A stretch of DNA of 64,000 nucleotides from Cohaesibacter haloalkalitolerans (GTDB lineage: Bacteria; Pseudomonadota; Alphaproteobacteria; Rhizobiales; Cohaesibacteraceae): NCBI RefSeq assembly GCF_003574655.1, contig NZ_QNUM01000003.1:186001-250000 (forward strand), read 5' to 3'. A model generated the notes under the pieces. That model had not been told where the DNA came from. It saw only the letters and a list, made by a program, of their open reading frames with translations, and ran no database searches. The position numbers and the translations under genes are program-made. Below are positions 30,031 to 41,604 of the stretch, piece after piece. Position 1 is the first letter of the stretch. The number at the start of each line of letters is the position of its first letter.

Positions 30031-30076
30031 ATTGCAACCAACATATATTTATAGTTGCATTGTTGACTATTGCAAT
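30031..30076 (+). repeat. Three TTGCA elements at the csgF promoter
   Basis: ATTGCAAC (30031-30038), GTTGCATT (30054-30061) and ATTGCAAT (30069-30076). The first two are in opposite orientation, and the third lies in the spacer of the promoter, so a bound regulator would directly affect RNA polymerase. The same core recurs ahead of the first two large curlin genes. Confidence 0.45.
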
Positions 30077-30091
30077 TCATTTAGATACAAA
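30063..30091 (+). promoter_or_regulatory. Sigma-70-type promoter of csgF-csgG
   Basis: TTGACT (30063-30068), 17-base spacer, TACAAA (30086-30091). Both boxes are near consensus and the spacing is optimal. It implies a leader of about 115 bases before the csgF start. Confidence 0.6.
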
Positions 30092-30209: not shown

Positions 30210-30656
30210 TTGAGAAAAGTGATTACTGTAGTCGGCCTGCTCCTTGCAGCAAGCAGCGCCCACGCATCAGAGCTTGTCTATACGCCGGTCAATCCGACGT
30301 TCGGCGGCAGTCCGTACAACTCGTCTCATCTGCTCTCCATCGCGAGCGCCCAGAGGTCAGCAACGGCAAGCGACGCAAACAAATCCAGCTCCAGCGGAGG
30401 AACCGACAGCGGCACCACCGACAATACCGCAGCCGATCTGTTTGTCAGCCAGCTGCAGAGCCGCCTGCTTTCCGCTCTCGCCAGCCAGGTTACAGAAGCC
30501 ATCTTTGGGGACGACCCGCAGGAAAACGGCACCATCACTTTTGGGGACACGGAAATCACCTTCAACCAGACGACAGATTCCATATCTCTCGTGATCACAG
30601 ACTTCACCGATGGAACAGTGACCCATATCGAAGTTCCGCAGTTGGTTACAAACTAG
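30210..30656 (+). CDS. csgF: Curli assembly/attachment protein CsgF
   Basis: CsgF caps the CsgG pore and links nucleation of curli fibres to the secretion site. After a signal peptide (LRKVITVVGLLLAASSAHA, cleavage expected after A-H-A) the mature protein begins SELVYTPVNPTFGGSPYNSSHLL, the conserved N-terminal segment that inserts in CsgG (F/V-x-P-x-N-P-x-F-G-G-x-P-x-N). A Ser/Thr/Gly-rich linker (about 50-68) leads to a C-terminal domain. The start is TTG at 30210, decided by AGGAGA at 30197-30202, 7 bases away; the ATG at 29997 would put 71 odd residues before the signal peptide. 148 residues against about 138 in E. coli. Confidence 0.9.
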   Translation: MRKVITVVGLLLAASSAHASELVYTPVNPTFGGSPYNSSHLLSIASAQRSATASDANKSSSSGGTDSGTTDNTAADLFVSQLQSRLLSALASQVTEAIFGDDPQENGTITFGDTEITFNQTTDSISLVITDFTDGTVTHIEVPQLVTN

Positions 30657-30671
30657 CCTCTGGTTTTGAAA

Positions 30672-31736
30672 ATGAATGATACTCTCCGAATCCGGTCTGG
30701 AACGAAACATGTTGTCGGCAAACGCTTCGCAGCCCCTGTTCTTCTCGTCATGGTCACCCTTGCGGGCTGTGCCACCAACAAATCCCTGATGACGGAAGCC
30801 CCGCGGGTCGCCGAAGTCAGTGAAGTCAACCTGCGGCTGAGGAACATCCCAGCTCCCAAGCAGCGCATTCCCGTCGCCGTCTATGATTTCAAGGACGAAA
30901 CCGGGCAATACCGCGAAGCCGCAAACTACCAGCAGCTGTCGCGCGTGGTCACACAGGGTGGCGTCGCCATCCTGATCAAGGCTTTGCAGGACGCAGGCAA
31001 TCGTCGCTGGTTTACCGTCATGGAACGCAACAAGCTGGCCGACCTGCTCAAGGAACGCCAGATCATCACCGAGATGCGCCGGCTTTACCGTGGCGAGGAA
31101 AAGGTGAACGCCAGTGTCCTGCCGCCACTCAAGCATGCCGCAATCATCATTGAAGGCGGTATCATCGGCTACAACCACAATGTCCAGACAGGTGGCCTTG
31201 GTGCGTCCTATCTCGGCATTACCGGCGACAGCGACTATTCCAAGGATGAAATCACGGTTTCGCTGAGGGCCATCTCCACAAAGACCGGCGAAGTCCTGAC
31301 CACCGTAACCGCCCGCAAGACTGTTGTCTCGGTCGGGCTGCAAGCTTCGGTGTTCCGCTACGTCAAGCTTGACGAGTTGCTGCAGGCAGAAGGCGGCTTT
31401 ACCAGCAACGAGCCGAGCCAGATCGCCCTTGAGGCCGCGGTCGAAAAGGCCGTTGAAGCCCTGATCGTTGAAGGCGTCGAACTCGATATCTGGCAATTCA
31501 AGGATCCCGGAAATGGCACGTCCTATGTCGAGACCCTGAAATCTGAACAGTATAAGGATACAAAGGACGCGACGTCCCCGGCCATGCTGCCACCGGAGAC
31601 CAAAAATGCCACCGCCATTTCAACAACAGTTCCGAGAATTGTGATCAGCCAGAAGCCGCAACCAACGCAGCCCGTTCGACAAACAACAAGAAGGCTTCCT
31701 CCACCATACTCAAATAATGAAGAACCACTTGGCTGA
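30672..31736 (+). CDS. csgG: Curli secretion channel lipoprotein CsgG
   Basis: CsgG forms the nonameric outer-membrane pore that exports curlin subunits. The 354-residue protein has a lipoprotein signal with lipobox L-A-G-C (lipidated Cys at about residue 33 from the ATG at 30672), then the CsgG core: IPVAVYDFKDETGQYR, V-V-T-Q-G-G, W-F-T-V-M-E-R, A-I-I-I-E-G-G-I-I-G-Y-N-x-N-x-x-x-G-G, G-A-S-Y-L-G-I and V-S-V-G-L-Q-A-S-V-F-R-Y-V. The C-terminal 70 residues (Pro/Thr/Gln-rich) are an extension beyond the E. coli protein (about 277). It starts 15 bases after csgF. Confidence 0.94.
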   Translation: MNDTLRIRSGTKHVVGKRFAAPVLLVMVTLAGCATNKSLMTEAPRVAEVSEVNLRLRNIPAPKQRIPVAVYDFKDETGQYREAANYQQLSRVVTQGGVAILIKALQDAGNRRWFTVMERNKLADLLKERQIITEMRRLYRGEEKVNASVLPPLKHAAIIIEGGIIGYNHNVQTGGLGASYLGITGDSDYSKDEITVSLRAISTKTGEVLTTVTARKTVVSVGLQASVFRYVKLDELLQAEGGFTSNEPSQIALEAAVEKAVEALIVEGVELDIWQFKDPGNGTSYVETLKSEQYKDTKDATSPAMLPPETKNATAISTTVPRIVISQKPQPTQPVRQTTRRLPPPYSNNEEPLG

Positions 31737-31772
31737 GTGAATTTATAATTTTTTAGTTGTATTAGGTTGAAT

Positions 31773-31805
31773 AGGCCGAGGAAGTATTTATTCCTCGGCC
31801 TTTTT
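31773..31805 (+). terminator. Strong intrinsic terminator after csgG
   Basis: An 11-bp stem (AGGCCGAGGAA with TTCCTCGGCCT), 7-base loop and TTTTT. It ends the csgF-csgG transcript and makes the downstream curlin genes a separate unit. Confidence 0.9.
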
Positions 31806-31887
31806 ATTTCAAGACTTCCATTAACCACCTAATTTTACCAACAAATTCGAAAGTAATTACAGTTTTAATAAATTGTTTTCTTCCATA

Positions 31888-31916
31888 TTGACTTTCAAAG
31901 TTAAGGAGAGGTAAAT
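31888..31916 (+). promoter_or_regulatory. Putative promoter of the first large curlin gene
   Basis: TTGACT (31888-31893), 17 bases, GTAAAT (31911-31916; TAAATG with an 18-base spacer). The same layout, TTGACA-N17-GTAAAA, stands ahead of the second curlin gene. Confidence 0.5.
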
Positions 31917-31918
31917 GA

Positions 31919-31955
31919 GTTGCATTGCCGCTTTTTAATAATCATTGGTTGTATC
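31919..31955 (+). repeat. Paired GTTGCATT / GTTGTATC, period 29
   Basis: GTTGCATT at 31919-31926 and GTTGTATC at 31948-31955, starts 29 bases apart, directly downstream of the putative -10 box. Spacing equals that of the pair ahead of the second curlin gene (33572 and 33601). Confidence 0.5.
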
Positions 31956-32045
31956 TTTCATCGGCATGAGGGGTGCAAAAAGGGGGGATCTCCCCGGGTG
32001 GTGGCATCAATTTTTTAACAAAGAAATTCATATGGGAGACAACAA

Positions 32046-33434
32046 ATGACCAAAACCCGTTTGGTACTCATGGCAGCGGTTGCCACTGCTGCTATCTCTG
32101 CAGGCCATGCCTACGCAGCAAGCAACGAAGCCAAGGTTGATCAGAGCGGGAACCAGAACTCGGCCTCGATCATTCAGGACGAAGCAGACAACAACAGGGC
32201 TTATGTCAAGCAGATCAATGATACCGACAGCAATTCAAACACGCTGACAATCGAACAGAAATCCGCGTGGAGCTTTGCTGCGGGCGTCGTTCAGGATGCC
32301 TCGACCGGCACCGGTAGCAACACCGCGGACATTCTGCAGCAGGGCCGCACCGCCAACAACATCCGCGGCCTTACCCAGACAGTGACCGACGCCGGCTCGA
32401 ACACGGCCAGCATCACCGAAACCGGCTATAACAACTCCATCCGCTCGGTCAGCCAGACCAACACGGGAGCATCGGATAACACCATTTCCATCGACCTCGT
32501 GGGCAGCCGCAACGGCTACACCAACTCCCAGGCAACCGGCAGCGTGGTTTGGTCGGCCCTTTCCGGCTATGCAGCCGCCACAACGGCTTCCAATGGCGTC
32601 GTCTCGCAGGATGGCACTGACAACGACATCACCCTGTCCATCACCGGTGACGACAACCTGTTCGGCGTTTCCCAGAAAGGCACCAACAGCCTTTCCGCCC
32701 TGTCCATCGTCGGTGACACCAACCAGCTTGGCGTCTATCAGGAATCCACCGCCGCTGGCCCCAACAGCCTGACCATCGCCGCCATCAATGGTGACGACAA
32801 CAACATCGGTGCCTATCAGTACGGCGCCAACACCGGCACCATCAATCTGGACACCACCAGCAACCGCAACATGGTCCTGTTGCATCAGTCTGGCGACAAC
32901 ACCGGCACCGTCTCCATCAGCAATGGCAGCGACAACAGCATCTCACTGGTGCAGGACGGCACCAACAGCGCCGACATTGCCGTCGCCCGCAGCTTCAACG
33001 AAATCTATGCCACCCAGATCGGCACCAACCTTCTGGATGCAGATGTAGAAGGCAACTTCAACAACTTCACCATCAACCAGACAACGCCAAATGGCACGCT
33101 GATCGGTGCGCAGAACGAGTTGACCCTCTCGGTTTATGGCAATTCCAACGGTCTGCGCAGCTGGCGCGGGAATGTGGCCCATGATGTCGGCCTGACGGCA
33201 GGCACCCTCACCCAGACCGGCCTCGACAACACCGCAACCGTTTCTGTCGGTTCGTCCAGCAGCTTCAGCGCCAACAACGTTCTGGCTCTTGCCCAGATCG
33301 GCGACAGCAACAGCATCGCCATCGACATCTCGGCGGGCAACGCCAACCAGGTAGCCATCTCCCAGACCGGCGACAGCAACAGCTCGTCCGTCACACAGGT
33401 CGGTTCCGACAACGTCGTTGGCATCAGCCAGTAA
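32046..33434 (+). CDS. Large curlin-repeat amyloid subunit 1
   Basis: A 462-residue secreted protein built almost wholly of imperfect curlin repeats (pattern Q-x-G-x-x-N alternating with I-x-G-D-x-N). Signal peptide 1-24 (MTKTRLVLMAAVATAAISAG, cleavage near A-Y-A). The mature N-terminus lacks the Gly-rich export segment of E. coli CsgA. A first interruption lies at about 153-187; residues 199-268 (ITGDDNLFGVSQ to TGTINL) are co-linear with the next two paralogues; a second interruption at 360-390 precedes the last 67 residues, ending Q-V-G-S-D-N-V-V-G-I-S-Q. A strong GGAGA lies 6 bases before the ATG. About three times the length of E. coli CsgA. Function as a curli-type subunit is inferred from the repeats and csgFG. 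Confidence 0.88.
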   Translation: MTKTRLVLMAAVATAAISAGHAYAASNEAKVDQSGNQNSASIIQDEADNNRAYVKQINDTDSNSNTLTIEQKSAWSFAAGVVQDASTGTGSNTADILQQGRTANNIRGLTQTVTDAGSNTASITETGYNNSIRSVSQTNTGASDNTISIDLVGSRNGYTNSQATGSVVWSALSGYAAATTASNGVVSQDGTDNDITLSITGDDNLFGVSQKGTNSLSALSIVGDTNQLGVYQESTAAGPNSLTIAAINGDDNNIGAYQYGANTGTINLDTTSNRNMVLLHQSGDNTGTVSISNGSDNSISLVQDGTNSADIAVARSFNEIYATQIGTNLLDADVEGNFNNFTINQTTPNGTLIGAQNELTLSVYGNSNGLRSWRGNVAHDVGLTAGTLTQTGLDNTATVSVGSSSSFSANNVLALAQIGDSNSIAIDISAGNANQVAISQTGDSNSSSVTQVGSDNVVGISQ

Positions 33435-33462
33435 GCGGCCACAGGGCATACTCTTCAAGCCA

Positions 33463-33490
33463 GGGTTGGGCGGCATCTCTCCGCCCACCC
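33463..33490 (+). other. Hairpin downstream of curlin gene 1
   Basis: GGGTTGGGCGG pairs with CCGCCCACCC (one bulged base) around a 7-base loop, 29 bases past the stop. No T run. The arm sequence GTTGGGCGGCAT recurs in the hairpin after curlin gene 2, so it is an inherited element, perhaps protecting the mRNA 3' end. Confidence 0.5.
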
Positions 33491-33542
33491 TTAACCGCAC
33501 CAACCAGAACCAAAGGACAGGTGGCACCCCCCTCACCTCAGG

Positions 33543-33571
33543 TTGACAATTATGGTGAACATAAAGTAAAA
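33543..33571 (+). promoter_or_regulatory. Putative promoter of the second large curlin gene
   Basis: Consensus TTGACA (33543-33548), 17 bases, GTAAAA (33566-33571; TAAAAA with 18). It matches the arrangement ahead of curlin gene 1. Confidence 0.55.
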
Positions 33572-33608
33572 ATTGCATTATTAAACATATAAAATCTTAG
33601 GTTGCATT
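33572..33608 (+). repeat. Paired ATTGCATT / GTTGCATT, period 29
   Basis: ATTGCATT (33572-33579) and GTTGCATT (33601-33608) start exactly 29 bases apart, just past the putative -10 box, in an AT-rich stretch. Same spacing as the pair at 31919/31948. Confidence 0.5.
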
Positions 33609-33686
33609 TGATTCCCTGACCTCGCGCGACGGACAAGGCCTGAAGCCGGGGCGATACACGGGCGAACATCATTTTGGAGACAACAA

Positions 33687-35225
33687 ATGACTAAAATTCG
33701 TTTGGCACTCATGGCTGCCGTTGCATCAGGTGTTATCGGCGTTGGCTATGCCTATGCCGCAGGGGGCAACGAGGCGGCGATCCGTCAGGAAGGCCAGAGC
33801 AACACTGCCAGGATCAACCAGAGCGCAGGACAGAGTAACCAGTTCAACAGCACTGGAGCGGGCGATACCAGCGCCGCCCTTCAAATGGGCAATGGTAACA
33901 GCATTGATGTCCTGCAGCAGGGCACGGGCAACCAGGCAGGTCTCATTGCAAACCGCTTCAATCAGCTGGACGAAATCATTCATCGCCTTGATGGCAGCGC
34001 AACGCTCAATCGCGCAGCTTGGGGTGTACCAGCTGAAGACTTCGACAGCGACGCCACCTCCGGCATTGCCCAGATCGGCGACAACAACGCATTCACGGCT
34101 GTTCAGCAAGTCGGTGGCAATGTCATCGGCGGCGTTGTTCAGCTTGCCGTCCGCCCGTCTGGCTCCCAGAAGAACACCCTTGAGATCACCCAGCAGGGCG
34201 GTTCGGGCAACGAGGTGTCGCAGGTGATGCAGGCAACCTCCTACAACAAGCAGAATTATGCCTCCATCACGCAGACCGGCTCCAACAACAAGATTGCTGC
34301 CATCAACCAGATCGGCGTCAATGTTGCAGGTGCGACCACTGCGGTGAACAGCATCATTGCCAATATCAGCGGCACGGATAACGGCACCAGCGCCCTCACC
34401 GGCTATGCCCTCTCTTCAGGTGCAACGACCAGCGAACTGAACCAGTTCGGGGCTGACAACTCGATTTCCCTCAACATCACCGGAGCCAGCAACAACAACG
34501 CCTTTGGCGTCAGCCAGACCAACTATGGTGGCGGTCGCAACACTCTGCAGGCGCTGACGATCACGGGCGACGACAACCAGCTCGGCGTTTCACAGGATGC
34601 TGATGGGGTGTCTGGCAATCACAACCAGTTGACCATCAGCTCGATCATTGGCAATGGCAACAACATCGGCGTCTCCCAGTTGGGTAGCAACCTTGGCACC
34701 ATCGACCTGAAAACCAACTCCGACAACAACCAGATCGGTCTGTCCCAAACCGGAACCAATCTGGCATCTGTTACCATTTTCTCCGGTGACGGCAACAATT
34801 TCGATCTGACGCAGGAAGACTTCAACCAGCTGACGATCAATGCGACCGGCAGCTTCAACCTGCTGAAAACGTCCCAGTCAGGCTCGGCTGCGGGCAGCGA
34901 CAATATTCTCAACGCCACCATTTACGGCAGCAACAACAACAGCACTGGCTTTGACCTTGCCGGTGTCGCCGGGGCCACCGGTCTTGTCGCCGGGGAACTG
35001 ATCCAGACCGGCTATGGCAACACGGCCACGATCGATGTTGGGTCTTCGACGATGGAAAGCAACAACAACTCCTTCGCGCTCACTCAAAGCGGCAACAGCA
35101 ACAAGGCCTTCATCAGCATCTCTGAAGGCAGTGACAACCAGGTTGCCCTGCTGCAGAGCGGCAATAGCAACTATTCCAGCATCACACAGGTCGGGTCATC
35201 CAACGTTGTTGGCGTAACCCAATAG
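33687..35225 (+). CDS. Large curlin-repeat amyloid subunit 2
   Basis: A 512-residue paralogue of subunit 1. Signal peptide 1-25 (MTKIRLALMAAVASGVIGVG then YAYA), nearly the same as in subunits 1 and 3. Curlin repeats fill the mature protein; residues 264-341 (ITGASNNNAFGVSQ, ITGDDNQLGVSQ, IIGNGNNIGVSQLGSNLGTIDL) align in order with subunits 1 and 3. A non-repeat interruption at 409-440 is followed by 67 residues ending Q-V-G-S-S-N-V-V-G-V-T-Q. The region 83-125 is a further less regular insertion. TTGGAGACAACAA precedes the ATG. Same direction and family as its neighbours, separated from each large paralogue by 252 bases. Confidence 0.88.
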   Translation: MTKIRLALMAAVASGVIGVGYAYAAGGNEAAIRQEGQSNTARINQSAGQSNQFNSTGAGDTSAALQMGNGNSIDVLQQGTGNQAGLIANRFNQLDEIIHRLDGSATLNRAAWGVPAEDFDSDATSGIAQIGDNNAFTAVQQVGGNVIGGVVQLAVRPSGSQKNTLEITQQGGSGNEVSQVMQATSYNKQNYASITQTGSNNKIAAINQIGVNVAGATTAVNSIIANISGTDNGTSALTGYALSSGATTSELNQFGADNSISLNITGASNNNAFGVSQTNYGGGRNTLQALTITGDDNQLGVSQDADGVSGNHNQLTISSIIGNGNNIGVSQLGSNLGTIDLKTNSDNNQIGLSQTGTNLASVTIFSGDGNNFDLTQEDFNQLTINATGSFNLLKTSQSGSAAGSDNILNATIYGSNNNSTGFDLAGVAGATGLVAGELIQTGYGNTATIDVGSSTMESNNNSFALTQSGNSNKAFISISEGSDNQVALLQSGNSNYSSITQVGSSNVVGVTQ

Positions 35226-35248
35226 GCGTGATGTCAATTCCTTGAAAC

Positions 35249-35276
35249 ATGGTTGGGCGGCATGCCGCCCAACCAT
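35249..35276 (+). other. Perfect 12-bp hairpin downstream of curlin gene 2
   Basis: ATGGTTGGGCGG pairs exactly with CCGCCCAACCAT around CATG, 23 bases past the stop. No T run. Related in sequence and place to the hairpin after curlin gene 1. Confidence 0.6.
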
Positions 35277-35477
35277 TCCTTTACCTCGAGGTCGCGGGTC
35301 CAGAGCGGAAAGTGGCAGACCGGCCGCTCCAGCTCAGGAAAAAATCGGCATCAGATCGGGGCAAAGTTTCATTTTTACGTTTCATTTCAAAGCACTCAAA
35401 CACTGCACACGTCATAAACGCAGATCGGGCAAGGCCCAGACGCATGCAAGTCATGAGTAGAGTATTGGAGACATCAA

Positions 35478-37259
35478 ATGACTAGAATTCGTTTGGCACT
35501 GATGGCAACCGCAGCAACCAGCGCAATCGCCATGGCAGGTCTGGCCTACGCGGCGAACAATGAGGCATTCATTACACAGCAGGGCACCAACAACAGCGCG
35601 TCAGTGGATCAGACCAACACCGGCGGGACAGCCGACCGCAACAAGCTTGGCAGCGCCAGCGACACTGTGCTCCAGAACGGCTCCTCCAACAGCCTTGACG
35701 TGACCCAGAGCGGTAGCGACAACGCCATCGGCCTTCTCGGCGACGGCGTCGACCAGACTGGCGCAAACAATGGCTTTGAGGCGTTACAGGCCACCGACGG
35801 CAACATCATTGGCTCGGTCCAGCAGATTGAGAACACCGCCGCAGGTGCCGATGGCGCCAACTATCTGCGCATCAAGCAGCAGGTCGGCAACGCCAACATC
35901 GTTGGCTCCGTTCGGCAGGAAACCACCGCAGATGGTGAAAACCGGGCCATCCTTCGCCAGGACGGCGCAGGGAACCGGATCAAATCCGTATCCCAGACCA
36001 ACAACGGCAATGGCACCAACAATCTGGTCGTCAAGATCGAGGGCAATGGCAATGGCACGTCCGACACTTTGACCAACTACGCTGCAATCAATGGCGTCAA
36101 TGGCAGTGAAATCATCCAGTCTGGCAGCGATAACGAGATCAAGCTCTATATCACCGGCGACGACAACCAGTTCGGCGCAACCCAGACCAATCTGTCTGGC
36201 GGCACCAACAGCATCAACACCCTGAATGTGGAAGGGGATCGCAACGAATTGGGCGTTTCCCAGATTGCCCATTCGGCCACCGATGCCAACACGCTGACCA
36301 TCCAGAAGATCGTCGGCGACGACAACAACGTCGGCGTCAGCCAGCAGGGTTGGGGTTTCAATACCGGTAGCATTGATCTGGGCGACAGCAGCGATAACAA
36401 CTGGGCCTATCTGAGCCAGCGAAACGGTGCAGACGCTGACATCACTGTTGAGGATGGCGACTTCAACCGCATCCGCATTTTCCAAATCGGGGCCAGCACC
36501 ACCAACCACTCGGCAACCATCTCAATTGACTCCAGTGATGTGACCGGCGTGAACAACGAAGCCTACATCAATCAGAGAGGCAATGGCCACACAGCAACGA
36601 CAACCATCGTTGGCGACAGAAACTACAGTCTTGTCTATCAGGAAAACGGCTACAGCAACACGGGTGTGAACAGCATTACTGGAGATGTAAACGAGGTCTA
36701 TATCAAACAGATCAATGGCAGTCATGATGACGACGCCAGTGTCTCGGTGACAGGTGATCGCAATACTGTGAATTCACGGCAAACCACCAGCAACAACGAC
36801 GTCCTCACCGTGGACATCACTGGCCAGAACAACACCATCAGCTCTACTCAGAACACGACATCTGGCAGTTCAGCCGAATTCGCAATCCTTGGCGATGCCA
36901 ACTCGTTTGATGCAACCCAGATGCTTGGTGCTGGCAACGGCCTGACAACCACAATCTACGGCAATGACAACGGCATGGGCACCTGGTCCGTCGGTGGCGC
37001 GGCTGCGTCACTGCTGCTTGATAGCGGCTATCTGAGCCAGTCCGGTTCCGGCAACACTCTGGCGCTGGCCATTGGTGACAGCGGGTTCAACAGCTCCAGC
37101 AACCTTGTGGCCACGATGCAGAATGGCGATGACAACATGATCAACATTTCGATCACTGCAGGTGACAGCAACGAAGTGGCGATCAGTCAGCATGGCAACG
37201 CCAACAGCTCTCAGGTTGCTCAAATCGGCTCGATGAACATCGTGGGCATCAGTCAGTAA
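35478..37259 (+). CDS. Large curlin-repeat amyloid subunit 3
   Basis: The longest of the set, 593 residues. Signal peptide 1-26 (MTRIRLALMATAATSAIAMA then GLAYA). Residues 225-301 (ITGDDNQFGATQ, GDRNELGVSQ, VGDDNNVGVSQQ, TGSIDL) are co-linear with subunits 1 and 2; about 340-480 holds extra repeats absent from the other two, accounting for the length. A non-repeat interruption at 491-521 is followed by 67 residues ending Q-I-G-S-M-N-I-V-G-I-S-Q. TTGGAGACATCAA precedes the ATG. Unlike genes 1 and 2 the upstream gap shows no TTGACA promoter, so it may depend on read-through. Confidence 0.88.
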   Translation: MTRIRLALMATAATSAIAMAGLAYAANNEAFITQQGTNNSASVDQTNTGGTADRNKLGSASDTVLQNGSSNSLDVTQSGSDNAIGLLGDGVDQTGANNGFEALQATDGNIIGSVQQIENTAAGADGANYLRIKQQVGNANIVGSVRQETTADGENRAILRQDGAGNRIKSVSQTNNGNGTNNLVVKIEGNGNGTSDTLTNYAAINGVNGSEIIQSGSDNEIKLYITGDDNQFGATQTNLSGGTNSINTLNVEGDRNELGVSQIAHSATDANTLTIQKIVGDDNNVGVSQQGWGFNTGSIDLGDSSDNNWAYLSQRNGADADITVEDGDFNRIRIFQIGASTTNHSATISIDSSDVTGVNNEAYINQRGNGHTATTTIVGDRNYSLVYQENGYSNTGVNSITGDVNEVYIKQINGSHDDDASVSVTGDRNTVNSRQTTSNNDVLTVDITGQNNTISSTQNTTSGSSAEFAILGDANSFDATQMLGAGNGLTTTIYGNDNGMGTWSVGGAAASLLLDSGYLSQSGSGNTLALAIGDSGFNSSSNLVATMQNGDDNMINISITAGDSNEVAISQHGNANSSQVAQIGSMNIVGISQ

Positions 37260-37353
37260 CGGCCCAGGAATAGCAACAACAGGGTGGACGATCCACGCCC
37301 ATCCTGCATTTCACGGGCGTTGATGCCCGATCCCCATGTGGAGTGATAGATCC

Positions 37354-38907
37354 ATGAAAAAGACCCGTCATCTTGTGCAGAATGCAGCGCTCAGCCTCGC
37401 CATGGCAACATGCGCGACGGCGGCTTTGGCTGATGAAAACGAAGTCTATCTCGGACAGACCGGTGTTACCAACGTCATCGACATCAACCAGCTTGGCGAT
37501 GCCAACAAGATTGGTGCTGATGACAGGCAGATTTTCATTTCCCAGCAGGGCATCAGCAACGAGATGACGATTTCCCAGACGGGATACAGCAACCAGGCAG
37601 GGGCGCGGGCGTCCTCCGGTAGCCTCGGCCTACAGGGGCTCTACCAGACCGGTGCCCTGAATAGCCTCGATATCACGCAGGAAAACGACAACGCCATCGG
37701 CATCAACCAGATTGGCGCCATCTCTCAGGTGTCACCCGATACTTATGCCTCGGCACGCAGCAATAGCCTCACCATCATTCAGAGCCACAACGCCCTTGAT
37801 GGCACAGATGGCTCAGGCGATGGTCAAGGTAATCACTTCATCGGCGAGATCCAGCAGATTCAGACAGCCACCGCCCTGTCCCCTAACGTTGCCACGATCC
37901 GGCAATATGACGGCGGAAACAATAGTGATGATGGCAACAGCATCAATCGGCTGGTTCAGGAGGGCAGCGCAAACCGCGTCGATATCACACAACAATATCG
38001 CGGCAATGCCATAGACACCTTCCTGCAATACGGGCTTTCCAACGAAGCTTCCATCCTGCAACGGGCGGGCATGGACAACCTGATCTCCAGCTTCAACCAG
38101 ATCGGCAGCAGCAACAGGACTGCGGTCACCATGACCGGCTCTCGCAACCTTTTGCTTTCCCTCATCCAGAACAACGATCTCGTCAGCGTGGCGGGCAACC
38201 TTGCCACCGTTCAGCTTGGCGGGGATGACAACGGCGGCGACGGGTTCGGTGGCCTTGGACAATTCACCCACGCCATCACCAAACAGCTGGCCGTCGCGCA
38301 GGCGGAAATCAAGCAGCTCGGTGATGACAACACGCTCAACTTCGTGACTTCGGGTGTCTCTTCGATGACGGTGTTCGGCTTCGTGCAGGATGGCGACGGC
38401 AACTGGCTGAGCGGCACCACCGACGGAACGGAGAACGAGGTGGCAGCGTTGCAGATCGGCGACGGCAACCGGCTGAACTTTTCCCAGAGCGGAGACCGCA
38501 ACGCCCTGTCCGTCTCCTATCGCGGCAAGGACAATGAACTGAACGCCGTACAGACCGGCAATGACAACACCATGTCAATCGCCTTTGACGGCAGCGTCAG
38601 CCCCCTCACCCGCAGCGATCAGAATAATGACACGGCTCTGGGCGGGTTCACGGATGTTGTGCTCGGCGCTGCAGGCACCCTGACACCCGGTCAGGCCATT
38701 CAGACAGGCAACCTCAATGTCGCCTTCGTGCAGATCAGCGAAGGCAGTTTCAACAAATTCGCCTTTTCCCAGTCTGGTGATCAGAACGTCATCGACGGTG
38801 CAATCCATGGCTCGTCCAACCAGTCTGCTGTCATCCAGACCGGTGGCGACAACTACGCTTACTACCGCCAGTCGGGCAATTACAACCAGCTCATCATCCT
38901 GCAGTAG
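37354..38907 (+). CDS. Large curlin-repeat protein 4 (divergent)
   Basis: A 517-residue secreted curlin-repeat protein with a different signal peptide (MKKTRHLVQNAALSLAMATC then ATAALA, cleavage near residue 26). Repeats follow Q-x-G-x-x-N throughout. It does not share the ordered middle block of subunits 1-3, so it is an older paralogue. A non-repeat interruption at about 410-445 (containing a D-Q-N-N-D segment and L-T-P-G-Q-A-I-Q-T-G) is followed by 62 residues ending N-Y-N-Q-L-I-I-L-Q. The ATG at 37354 is chosen over 37336 because GGAG then lies 10 bases away and the signal peptide starts with K-K. It follows subunit 3 by 94 bases. Confidence 0.85.
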   Translation: MKKTRHLVQNAALSLAMATCATAALADENEVYLGQTGVTNVIDINQLGDANKIGADDRQIFISQQGISNEMTISQTGYSNQAGARASSGSLGLQGLYQTGALNSLDITQENDNAIGINQIGAISQVSPDTYASARSNSLTIIQSHNALDGTDGSGDGQGNHFIGEIQQIQTATALSPNVATIRQYDGGNNSDDGNSINRLVQEGSANRVDITQQYRGNAIDTFLQYGLSNEASILQRAGMDNLISSFNQIGSSNRTAVTMTGSRNLLLSLIQNNDLVSVAGNLATVQLGGDDNGGDGFGGLGQFTHAITKQLAVAQAEIKQLGDDNTLNFVTSGVSSMTVFGFVQDGDGNWLSGTTDGTENEVAALQIGDGNRLNFSQSGDRNALSVSYRGKDNELNAVQTGNDNTMSIAFDGSVSPLTRSDQNNDTALGGFTDVVLGAAGTLTPGQAIQTGNLNVAFVQISEGSFNKFAFSQSGDQNVIDGAIHGSSNQSAVIQTGGDNYAYYRQSGNYNQLIILQ

Positions 38908-39068
38908 AAACAGGTTGTGCTATTGAATTTTTCTACCACAGGATTTAAGATAAGATTCACTCTGTCATCAAGAAAAGACTCAATCGCAACGCTTAAGAGG
39001 TTCACATAAGAGCTCATTAAAGATTTCCCTGATCTACTGGCTTCAGTTGAAAGCAAAGGAACAGGGAT

Positions 39069-39578
39069 ATGCAAAAACAACTGACGGCTTTGGCAACAAT
39101 TCTCCTCTTGAGCGGGGCCACACAGGCATATGCGGAGACGAATGTAATCGAATTACTTGATGACGCAAATCTGGATGGAAATGTCATTGAGATGAACATC
39201 ACCGGCGACAACAACAGCCTGAGCCTCACTCAGGACTTTGCTTTGGGCGCCTGGGGCGAAAATCTGATGGACATCACCATCGAAGGAAACAACAACGGCG
39301 GCGCAAATGGTTCCATCTTTTCGGGCGTGGCGCTCAAAAGTGGATTGCAGCCGGGAGAATTGATCCAGGAAGGGTTCGACAACAGCATGATTGTGAATGT
39401 CAGCGGCAACAGCAATCTGTTCTCCTTCCTGCAAAATGGAGCGCACAACTCGCTTCAGGCCTCAATCGAGGGCACGGGTAATCAGGCCGCCGTGCAGCAA
39501 TATGGACAGAATAACCACGTGAGCTTCAGCCAGATGGGCAGCAACAACAGCATCAACATCTCGCAAAGATCATTCTAG
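39069..39578 (+). CDS. Short curlin-repeat protein, CsgB-like
   Basis: A 169-residue secreted protein with signal peptide 1-22 (MQKQLTALATILLLSGATQA, cleavage after A-Y-A). It has about five curlin-type repeats and the same interruption seen in the large proteins (69-100, ending G-E-L-I-Q-E-G-F-D-N), followed by 64 residues ending I-N-I-S-Q-R-S-F. Length is close to E. coli CsgB (151), and the basic residue near the end recalls the CsgB C-terminus, so a nucleator role is likely but inferred. AAAGGAACAGGG precedes the ATG. Confidence 0.78.
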   Translation: MQKQLTALATILLLSGATQAYAETNVIELLDDANLDGNVIEMNITGDNNSLSLTQDFALGAWGENLMDITIEGNNNGGANGSIFSGVALKSGLQPGELIQEGFDNSMIVNVSGNSNLFSFLQNGAHNSLQASIEGTGNQAAVQQYGQNNHVSFSQMGSNNSINISQRSF

Positions 39579-39613
39579 GGTCATTCTGTGCCAATGAATG
39601 AGGAGACTGGCAC

Positions 39614-40342
39614 ATGAACAAAGCCTTCTATTTGGGCGCTCTCGCACTATCCCTTGCGGGGTTCCCGCTTTCAACCGCTCTGGCCGGTGATGAAAACACC
39701 CTGATCCTGCTTCAGGAGGGTGCCGGAAACACCATTTCCATCGATCAGAAGACAGCAATCGGCAGTCAGATCGGTGGGGTGAATTTCATCGAGAAGCCGG
39801 CGCTTGAGAATTCCGAATTCGAGGTGCTCGATCTTTCGAACCCTCTAAATCTCAATGAAGCAACCAACCATCCGATCTTGCAGTTGGGCGACAACAACAG
39901 CGCCAACATCACGATCGAGGGGCAGGATGACGTGGTCTACCTGCAGCAGAACAGTCAGGGACAGGCACCGGGCAACAATGCCGATATCTATGTCAACTCC
40001 GGAGCTGGTGCACCTTCCTTTGCGGCAGTCGTGCAGACCGGCGCTGGCAACAATGCCGAGGTCAGCATTGACGGCAGCCTTTCCAACGGCACAATCCTGC
40101 AAAACGGATCGGACAACAACGGCACCATCACTGTGGACGGCAACAATGTCACCGCGGCCTTGACGCAGGTCGGCTCCAACAATGACAGTCAGCTGGTAGC
40201 ACAGGGCAATGCAACATCTGCCACCGGGGTCGACGGTGCAAACGTGACCTATACGCTCTATGCCAATGGCGTCACGACCACTCAGCCGGTCACCGTGTCG
40301 ACAAACGGCGCGTCCGTCAGCATTACGCAAGTCCAGTTCTGA
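39614..40342 (+). CDS. Curlin-like protein with distinct C-terminal domain
   Basis: A 242-residue secreted protein: signal peptide 1-24 (cleavage after A-L-A), a few curlin-type units (L-L-Q-E-G-A-G-N, L-Q-L-G-D-N-N-S-A-N, V-Q-T-G-A-G-N-N, L-Q-N-G-S-D-N-N, L-T-Q-V-G-S-N-N-D), an irregular segment at about 48-85, and a C-terminal 35-residue part rich in Thr and Val (TYTLYANGVTTTQPVTVSTN) that is not a curlin repeat. It may be a fibre-associated or minor subunit. It starts 35 bases after the CsgB-like gene with GGAGA upstream of the ATG. Confidence 0.78.
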   Translation: MNKAFYLGALALSLAGFPLSTALAGDENTLILLQEGAGNTISIDQKTAIGSQIGGVNFIEKPALENSEFEVLDLSNPLNLNEATNHPILQLGDNNSANITIEGQDDVVYLQQNSQGQAPGNNADIYVNSGAGAPSFAAVVQTGAGNNAEVSIDGSLSNGTILQNGSDNNGTITVDGNNVTAALTQVGSNNDSQLVAQGNATSATGVDGANVTYTLYANGVTTTQPVTVSTNGASVSITQVQF

Positions 40343-40354
40343 TCCTTCCAACGC

Positions 40355-40382
40355 CCAACCCTGCCTTCGGGCAGGGATTGGG
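40355..40382 (+). other. UUCG-capped hairpin ahead of csgH
   Basis: CCCTGCC-TTCG-GGCAGGG with an outer CCAA/TTGG extension (one bulged A), ending 5 bases before the annotated csgH ATG. UUCG tetraloops are very stable. It may limit translation of csgH or protect the upstream mRNA. Confidence 0.5.
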
Positions 40383-40387
40383 GGAGC

Positions 40388-40855
40388 ATGGCCTTGCGAC
40401 ATCCCGTTTCACAAAAGACAATTCCAACCGGCCATGGCCGGAGACTTGGCCCGGCCATGCGTCTGTCGCTGTTGCTTGGCCTTGCCGTCACCCCGAGCAT
40501 GGGAACGCCAACCATGGCCGCCGACCAAAAAGCAGAGCCCAGACTTGTCTTTGAGACCAATGGCGATCAGCTCACCATTTCAGGCGTTCTGCATCCCGCG
40601 GCCCCCGGCGACTATGTTGCCAAACTCGAAGTCATCAAATCGGGGCCGAACGGCAAGGCAACCACCAGGCAGAGCAACAGGATAATGGTCAACGGCGACA
40701 AGACCTATCCATCAAGCAAGGTCTCCTTGCGCCTGTCGACGGGCGACCATGTCACCGCCCGGCTCGACCTCTTTTCCAATGACAAGCTCCTTCAGAGCAC
40801 CCATCGAGAATTTGATTTCGGCACCTCGGCGCCGGAGGACAAAAACCATTTGTGA
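40388..40855 (+). CDS. csgH: Curli amyloid inhibitor/chaperone CsgH
   Basis: CsgH is an alphaproteobacterial periplasmic protein with an immunoglobulin-like beta-sandwich that prevents early curlin aggregation. The mature part (ADQKAEPRLVFETNGDQLTI onward) shows alternating strands, S-G-P-N-G-K, S-N-R-I-M-V and a final R-E-F-D-F-G pattern, about 105 residues, consistent with CsgH. Start uncertain: ATG at 40388 gives 155 residues with a long N-region before the hydrophobic signal core; ATG at 40457 (MRLSLLLGLAVTPSMG) gives a normal signal peptide and 132 residues. Ribosome binding sites do not decide it. Product assignment rests on context plus length and pattern. Confidence 0.75.
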   Translation: MALRHPVSQKTIPTGHGRRLGPAMRLSLLLGLAVTPSMGTPTMAADQKAEPRLVFETNGDQLTISGVLHPAAPGDYVAKLEVIKSGPNGKATTRQSNRIMVNGDKTYPSSKVSLRLSTGDHVTARLDLFSNDKLLQSTHREFDFGTSAPEDKNHL

Positions 40856-40878
40856 TCCATTTCGTATCGGTGAAATCA

Positions 40879-41604
40879 ATGATCAGGCTAACCGCAGTTT
40901 TCGCATCCACTCTCCTCTGGCTGGGCTGTCTTGCACAGACCCCGGCTCTGGCTCAAACCCCAAGTGCCGTGGCAAAAGCCTTCGCTGGACGCTGGATCAC
41001 CTATGACCGGAATTTCTCCGATCAGAAGAGCTGCATCTTCGAGTTCTCCAGCGAGTTGAAAGACGACATTTTCCCGATTGCCAAGACCGGTTGCACCGGC
41101 GCCCTTGCCGCCATCGCAGGCTGGCGGATCCAGAACAATCAGCTGGTCTTTGTCACTGCGGACAAGAGTGCCATCGCTCTGGTCGGCGGCAATCAGGAAC
41201 GGATGAGCGGTTCCATCCTGCAAAGCAAGCTGCCGATCATCTTCGAGCGTCTGGAAGTGGCTGAAAAGATCGAGCAGGCCCGCAAGTCCATCGAATGTTC
41301 CTACATCGGTTACAGCCAGACCTGCGCGTCACCACAAGACTTCACCCCGCCACCGGCAACCATCGGCTCGCCGTCTCCCATCCAGATTCTCGTAAACCTC
41401 AACGCACGCGCCGAACCGCGCAATAGTGCCGCCATCAAGGGCGTACTGAAGCCAAATGCCTGCGTCAGCGCCGAAGTTTGCACCGTCGCCTCCGATGGCC
41501 TGTGGTGCAAGGTGAAAACGGAAAACGGCAACGCCTGGGTCAAGAAGCAGACCGTCCGTCAGCAACGGTGGCCCATCATCACCTTCAAGAACGGCTGCGT
41601 CTGA
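40879..41604 (+). CDS. Inh/AprI-like domain plus SH3 domain periplasmic protein
   Basis: A 241-residue protein with signal peptide (cleavage expected after A-L-A, residue 25). Residues 33-115 (AFAGRW ... CIFEF ... GCTGALAAIAGW ... SAIALVGG ... MSGSI) match the beta-barrel pattern of AprI/Inh/Omp19-type metalloprotease inhibitors, with C52 and C72 at the usual disulfide places. Residues 168-225 (LNARAEPRNSAAIKGVLKPN ... GLWCKVK ... AWVKK) are a bacterial SH3 domain. Nine cysteines suggest several disulfides. A GTG at 40852 overlapping the csgH stop (GTGA) is an alternative start. It ends the curli unit, so a role in protecting curlins or binding peptidoglycan is likely but inferred. Confidence 0.75.
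   Translation: MIRLTAVFASTLLWLGCLAQTPALAQTPSAVAKAFAGRWITYDRNFSDQKSCIFEFSSELKDDIFPIAKTGCTGALAAIAGWRIQNNQLVFVTADKSAIALVGGNQERMSGSILQSKLPIIFERLEVAEKIEQARKSIECSYIGYSQTCASPQDFTPPPATIGSPSPIQILVNLNARAEPRNSAAIKGVLKPNACVSAEVCTVASDGLWCKVKTENGNAWVKKQTVRQQRWPIITFKNGCV

Follow-up and report, generated by a model that had tools for sequence, protein, structure and literature searches.

Does a run of curlin-repeat genes in Cohaesibacter, a marine bacterium whose genus is named for cells sticking together, encode a working curli system, and what would such a system do with so many large subunits? We examined ten plus-strand reading frames at positions 30210..41604 of a 64,000-nucleotide (nt) stretch of the Cohaesibacter haloalkalitolerans genome (the window), where an earlier note, written from the sequence alone, had placed a curli island at the same coordinates. 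The island is a real, conserved curli variant. We put at about 75% the probability that Cohaesibacter has here a complete curli (type VIII secretion) system of the alphaproteobacterial kind, with csgH and without CsgE, and that this system works as proposed below.

Pfam and NCBIfam profiles named the frames as CsgF, CsgG, six curlin-repeat proteins (cur1 to cur6), a CsgH-like protein and a protein with Inh and SH3 domains (Inh-SH3b). This confirmed the gene content in the earlier note, with its four giants of 462-593 amino acids (aa) and its CsgB-sized curlin. E values (E) are from Pfam unless another source is named.

30210..30656, plus strand: csgF, with a TTG start after AGGAG; CsgF E 6.6e-33; phmmer match to the solved CsgF 6l7a, E 1.4e-5
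30666..31736, plus strand: csgG, the outer-membrane curli secretion channel, with a lipobox-like LAGC; CsgG E 1.5e-57; phmmer match to the solved CsgG 3x2r, E 1.6e-49
32046..33434, plus strand: cur1, giant curlin, 462 aa; Curlin_rpt E 4.3e-15
33687..35225, plus strand: cur2, giant curlin, 512 aa; Curlin_rpt E 1.2e-13
35478..37259, plus strand: cur3, giant curlin, 593 aa; Curlin_rpt E 1e-11; profile match to the curli structure 8c50, E 8e-16; all-beta solenoid by AlphaFold
37336..38907 (start at 37336 or 37351), plus strand: cur4, constant giant curlin, 518-523 aa (about 518); Curlin_rpt E 8.9e-11; profile match to 8c50, E 6.3e-20
39069..39578, plus strand: cur5, CsgB-sized curlin, 169 aa; Curlin_rpt E 9.9e-6
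39614..40342, plus strand: cur6, 242-aa curlin with a C-terminal module conserved in an alignment of 14 members; Curlin_rpt E 3.9e-6
40388..40855, plus strand: csgH-like gene; NCBIfam NF041112, 45.5 bits (cutoff 35)
40852..41604, plus strand: Inh-SH3b gene, starting at GTG 40852 (overlapping the csgH stop) or at ATG 40879

The curlin, CsgF and CsgG profiles, which the earlier note had proposed as a check, all found their matches, and all six curlins exceeded the Pfam cutoff for Curlin_rpt (PF07012). The motif QxGxxN occurred 6, 11, 11, 17, 4 and 6 times in cur1 to cur6, whereas in 2000 shuffles of each protein the mean was 0.2-0.7 and the maximum 3-5. The whole 5.0-Mb genome contained eight curlin-repeat matches, all inside the island. 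The N termini of cur1 to cur6 appeared signal-like when judged by eye. CsgF covered positions 2-132 of the 132-position Pfam profile, showing that the N-terminal CsgG-binding region is present, and its NPxFGGxPxN motif aligned to CsgF 6l7a. Island proteins did not reach the NCBIfam equivalog cutoffs for E. coli-type CsgA, CsgB, CsgF and CsgG, as expected for distant homologs. A genome-wide profile search that detected its E. coli control found no CsgE. The absence of CsgE does not exclude curli, since Alphaproteobacteria are reported to have csgH and to be missing csgC, csgD and csgE (PMC3521004). None of the ten island genes is csgD, and neither csgD nor csgC was the subject of a genome-wide search.

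The csgH assignment in the earlier note stood in part. The protein passed the NCBIfam cutoff for CsgH but missed that of Pfam (16.8, cutoff 27). CsgH is defined by two cysteines far apart in the sequence (PMC4838910). The window protein has no cysteines, and none of the 14 Cohaesibacter members has the distant pair; we therefore call the protein CsgH-like. One member (L032) has two cysteines nine residues apart in its presumed signal region, and the distant pair occurs in three of five CsgH members from other genera. We also considered a CsgG constriction specific to Cohaesibacter and rejected it, because the constriction loop differed from that of E. coli in all 25 aligned rows, 12 from the genus and 13 from other genera (the rows of L037 and the window were left out). 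Nine of the 31 CsgF-bearing genomes of the order (L038, L039 and L050 to L056) carried a short CsgF of 87-117 aa matching about the first 50 of the 132 profile positions, which we take to be the part that binds CsgG. Near curli loci of other genera, we observed one IalB-family gene and two SLT transglycosylase genes (L050:7078-7737, L042:11179-12111 and L055:7329-8222).

Fourteen of the 18 Cohaesibacter genomes, that of the window among them, gave a CsgF match. In all 13 relatives' loci, the order was csgF, csgG, one to four cur1-3-like giants, cur4, cur5, cur6, csgH and inh, so that with the constant cur4 each island has two to five giants. Both cur4 and cur6 were present in the window and in 13/13 relatives' loci (52-97% and 43-98% identical to the window proteins, respectively), while cur5 was not found in two of the 13 (L029 and L037). 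Against locus L028, the ratio of nonsynonymous to synonymous substitution rates (dN/dS) was 0.035 for csgG, 0.040 for inh, 0.044 for cur6, 0.056 for cur4, 0.071 for csgF, 0.089 for cur1, 0.149 for cur2, 0.178 for cur5, 0.294 for csgH and 0.347 for cur3. Against L025, the values were much alike overall, with 0.055 for csgG, 0.051 for inh, 0.055 for cur4, 0.046 for cur5, 0.083 for cur6, 0.308 for csgH and 0.407 for cur3. We set aside the comparison with the more distant L026, where dS was at least 1.46 for every gene and inh was not computable. These values indicate that every subunit is maintained under purifying selection; the ratio for csgH is six to eight times that for csgG in the two comparisons.

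Frames that we read, without a search, as moeA- and FNR-like lie upstream in 8/13 relatives' loci, and frames read in the same way as lexA-like (six loci) and comEC-like (five) lie downstream. The flanks are common on both sides in L025 and L028 and on neither side in L036. These partly common flanks fit a site that is old, was passed on vertically and has since been rearranged, and the island has apparently been kept vertically in Cohaesibacter. Two relatives' loci contain a broken gene or a sequencing error: cur2 is split into two frames at L034:10604-12225, and csgG lies in two overlapping pieces at L037:12297-13360. Four relatives have extra curlin-repeat matches outside the island (G009:C18:29392-31113, G002:C1:192946-194559, G016:C1:23317 and G006:C1:4789789). 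In a genome assigned to another family (G111, 7% contamination), L046:20-5068 holds csgF and csgG together with a giant and a cur4 ortholog (47% identical), so that either the cassette is more widely spread or the genome is contaminated here; the contig stops at that point, short of where csgH and inh would lie.

We modeled one giant, cur3, using AlphaFold. The model was an all-beta, long beta-solenoid (predicted local distance difference test score of 78.3, predicted template modeling score of 0.81) with 58% strand, 46 strands when double-length ones are counted twice, and a median spacing of 12 residues. The cur3 model did not refute the solenoid expected by the earlier note, but the fold comparison listed no curli structure for it, and the likenesses were to beta-helix enzymes and adhesins. 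These likenesses would suit a surface coat or adhesin built of single solenoids instead of an amyloid fiber. The presence of CsgF, CsgG and the CsgH-like protein in the same island argues against a coat, as do the curlin profile matches and the matches to 8c50. Moreover, in PMC10192328 all 2686 curlin AlphaFold models were solenoids, and fibers of two curlins were examined by cryo-electron microscopy. We consider a coat or adhesin very unlikely.

The curlin-like protein with a distinct C terminus described in the earlier note is cur6, whose C-terminal module (YTxxxNG...P...TNGASVSITQ) recurs in 14/14 aligned members. The only match to cur6 in plasmid records, a protein of an Aureimonas sp. AU20 plasmid (32.7% identity over 98%), shows that cur6-like proteins are not restricted to Cohaesibacter. 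A cur6 profile also matched curlins at several other Hyphomicrobiales loci, over an extent that may or may not include the C-terminal module. All 15 cur4 proteins contain an invariant GDDNGGDG(F/M)GGxGQF stretch, which seems to break the usual repeat pattern and resembles an acidic metal-binding loop. Among 18 within-genome pairs of cur1-3-like paralogs, pooled identity was 56% over the last 60 residues, a figure raised by the two cur1 copies of L028, a single pair with identical ends, 45% in the middle and 47% over the first 24 residues; the cleavage-site rule cut wrongly for pairs with L028_1b. The idea that the paralogs share N-terminal docking ends was unsupported by this comparison (47% versus 45%). 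The two L028 cur1 copies are mosaic, with 398/400 alignment columns identical in one stretch and 64-83% identity upstream (columns 100-799), a sign of recombination between subunits.

From the observed gene content, order, conservation, selection, promoter-like elements and fold classes of two proteins, we infer the following scheme of expression, export, fiber composition and every division of labor among the subunits. The six curlins would enter the periplasm, where the CsgH-like protein would hold off their polymerization or delay nucleation. The unfolded chains would leave through CsgG, gated by CsgF, and at the cell surface would fold to beta-solenoids that stack end to end. The variable giants cur1 to cur3 would form the bulk of the fiber. 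The constant or nearly constant cur4, cur5 and cur6, whose own ends differ from those of the variable giants, would act as connector, CsgB-like nucleator and surface anchor or cap, with nonredundant roles. Inh-SH3b would be a dedicated accessory, probably periplasmic, that protects the long subunits or keeps hold of them while they are exported unfolded. The product would be a multi-subunit fiber, or heteropolymer.

The spacers of the island hold these elements:

30063..30091, plus strand: promoter-like element before csgF (TTGACT, 17 nt, TACAAA), a presumed promoter; TTGAC[AT] lies upstream of csgF in 14/14 loci
31773..31801, plus strand: terminator-like hairpin after csgG, 11 pairs with 7 GC, then TTTTATTTCA
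31888..31953, plus strand: promoter-like element before cur1 (TTGACT, 17 nt, GTAAAT) with TTG[CT]A boxes at +32 and +61; 14/14 loci
33463..33490, plus strand: stem-loop after cur1; best 50-nt spacer hairpin of -22.8 kcal/mol, without a shuffle control
33543..33571, plus strand: second promoter-like copy before cur2 (TTGACA, 17 nt, GTAAAA), then two TTGCA boxes; also in L025 and L028
35249..35276, plus strand: stem-loop after cur2; best 50-nt spacer hairpin of -25.1 kcal/mol, without a shuffle control

In the element before cur1, the second hexamer is ATAAAT in two of the 14 loci and GTAAAT in the others, and every locus has the TTG[CT]A boxes at +31/32 and at +59 to +61, counted from the first hexamer. 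GTTG[CT]A occurred 39 times before cur1, compared to a mean of 2.4 and a maximum of 11 in 200 dinucleotide shuffles, and 13 times before csgF (10/14 loci), compared to 1.6 in shuffles; the 14 loci are relatives, and these motif counts are not independent. A general sigma-70 scan gave no excess (5 found versus 5.7 expected), so the argument for promoters is one of conservation. At window positions 31901-31915, TTAA-N7-TAAA is one letter off what we take to be the CtrA consensus; it overlaps the second hexamer and may be a chance occurrence in an AT-rich promoter. A scan of both strands found 19 terminator-like sites versus 13.1 expected. The T run after csgG is present in the 14-locus alignment, and the hairpin was seen by eye in most loci. 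The best 50-nt hairpins in the spacers after giants (n = 14) ranged from -14.9 to -29.7 kcal/mol, again without a shuffle control, and Rfam gave no match at gathering scores. The separate promoter-like elements and the terminator-like hairpin suggest that csgFG is transcribed separately from the curlin genes. The earlier note had described one block: all ten genes do lie on one strand, but these elements would divide them into no fewer than two transcription units, and perhaps three, which are probably controlled in common.

These elements allow a different account of the giants, as alternative subunits that are not copolymerized, with separate promoters and hairpins varying fiber composition over time and the paralogs serving as a recombination reservoir. 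The promoter-like copy of cur2, the stem-loops after giants, the range of one to four cur1-3-like genes and the mosaic L028 copies all fit this account. However, the two units have the same motif in front of them, which points to common control; purifying selection acts on every subunit tested; and cur4 and cur6 are present throughout the 14 loci. We regard alternation as possible but rather less likely than not.

The last gene of the island encodes a fusion of an inhibitor-like barrel and a wall-binding-like domain. The window protein scored below the Pfam cutoffs for both Inh (18.2 of 25) and SH3_3 (24.8 of 27). At E <= 0.1, Inh matched 13/13 family members and SH3_3 matched 12/13, in agreement with the fold comparison. 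The protein thus has the Inh barrel that marks I38/Inh inhibitors, and its inhibitor function is putative. A full-length Inh-SH3b was found in 14 of 397 genomes of the order, exactly the 14/18 Cohaesibacter genomes with CsgF and none of the four without it, one of which is only 64% complete; these genomes are relatives and not independent. G090 gave one partial match, on the SH3 side. In a sample of the class Alphaproteobacteria, 1/385 genomes matched, this being its own genome. At eight curli loci of other genera, 0/10 neighboring frames, a hand-picked and nonexhaustive set, matched Inh or SH3 in Pfam.

Inh-SH3b could instead be a positional neighbor outside the curli machine, with an unrelated protease as its true target. 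The presumed role of I38/Inh inhibitors is protection from secreted metalloproteases (PMC9486555), the genome has two further Inh proteins, both above the Pfam cutoff, and the last place in the gene order could reflect chance linkage. Against this stand the co-occurrence with CsgF, a dN/dS about as low as that of csgG and, if the GTG start is used, a 4-base overlap with csgH. The genome also has no match to Peptidase_M10_C, the only protease family searched, a result that led us to drop self-protection against the organism's own serralysin as a candidate role. On balance, we think it unlikely that Inh-SH3b is a mere neighbor. In a literature search, the phrase "protease inhibitor inh" was absent among the matches listed.

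A bolder form of the proposed scheme would be an ordered amyloid block copolymer. Here, the constant subunits, with cur6 at the cell and cur5 and cur4 as nucleator and connector, would set the start and register, and one to four exchangeable giants would give the shaft its length and surface. A new curli component, Inh-SH3b, would serve this copolymer as a guardian bound to the envelope, taking over the CsgE-type handling of very long unfolded periplasmic chains. We offer this as speculation and think it improbable in its full form. Curli serve as a model for functional amyloids, and E. coli, with its one major subunit, is the basis of most studies. The Cohaesibacter set has up to six or seven distinct subunits, with one to four interchangeable giants and constant partners, in which single-gene deletions could probe heteropolymer assembly, nucleation and length. 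If Inh-SH3b is needed for fibers, it would be a curli accessory that we did not find described in the literature examined and would give a clue as to how unfolded chains of such length can persist in the periplasm when CsgE is absent.

How far does the island depart from known curli? A literature search found no paper combining Cohaesibacter and curli. The novelty of subunit size and number implied by the earlier note did not hold. Dueholm et al. 2012 (PMC3521004) reported CsgA homologs of up to 529 aa and 22 repeats and up to six csgA/B homologs, and Sleutel et al. 2023 (PMC10192328) reported curlins of up to 62 repeats and up to 30 copies per genome. Of 17 CsgF loci from the same order but outside the genus, eight carry a curlin-like frame no shorter than 450 aa, with a maximum of 1306 aa; none has more than two giants within the stretch fetched, and three are on contigs shorter than 7 kb. 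The 1306-aa frame, in another Hyphomicrobiales genome (L056:4964-8884), has 48 QxG..[NQ] motifs and lies beside a short csgF. Giant size is therefore ruled out as a novelty, and the size and number of the subunits are within a known kind of curli system. We also set aside the absence of CsgE as the cause of giant size, because PMC10192328 describes a 15-repeat curlin from Pontibacter and, in the available portion of PMC3521004, only csgC and csgD are named as missing from Bacteroidetes.

Like the E. coli csgBAC/csgDEFG system, the island has a CsgG channel, CsgF and curlin repeats. Unlike E. coli, its genome has no CsgE match, a CsgH-like protein stands in place of CsgC, and there are six subunits rather than two, four of them three to four times longer. 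The island resembles the alphaproteobacterial operons of PMC3521004 in having csgF, csgG, a csgH-like gene, several csgA/B homologs and long, many-repeat subunits without csgE. It differs from those operons, as described there, in its four giants, its terminal Inh-SH3b gene, its likely division into at least two transcription units and its CsgH-like protein without the cysteine pair. Inh-SH3b itself differs from the I38/Inh inhibitors and Omp19 of PMC9486555 in its fusion to an SH3b domain, and from Omp19 in lacking the long disordered N terminus that bears the activity of that protein. The giants, with about 19-25 repeats by our own estimate of about 23 residues each, are like the many-repeat curlins of PMC10192328, whose published secondary maximum is about 22. 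Unlike those curlins, as presented there, several giants occur together, with constant and variable members in conserved order. What is new is the Inh-SH3b gene, together with this fixed order in which constant and variable subunits follow one another.

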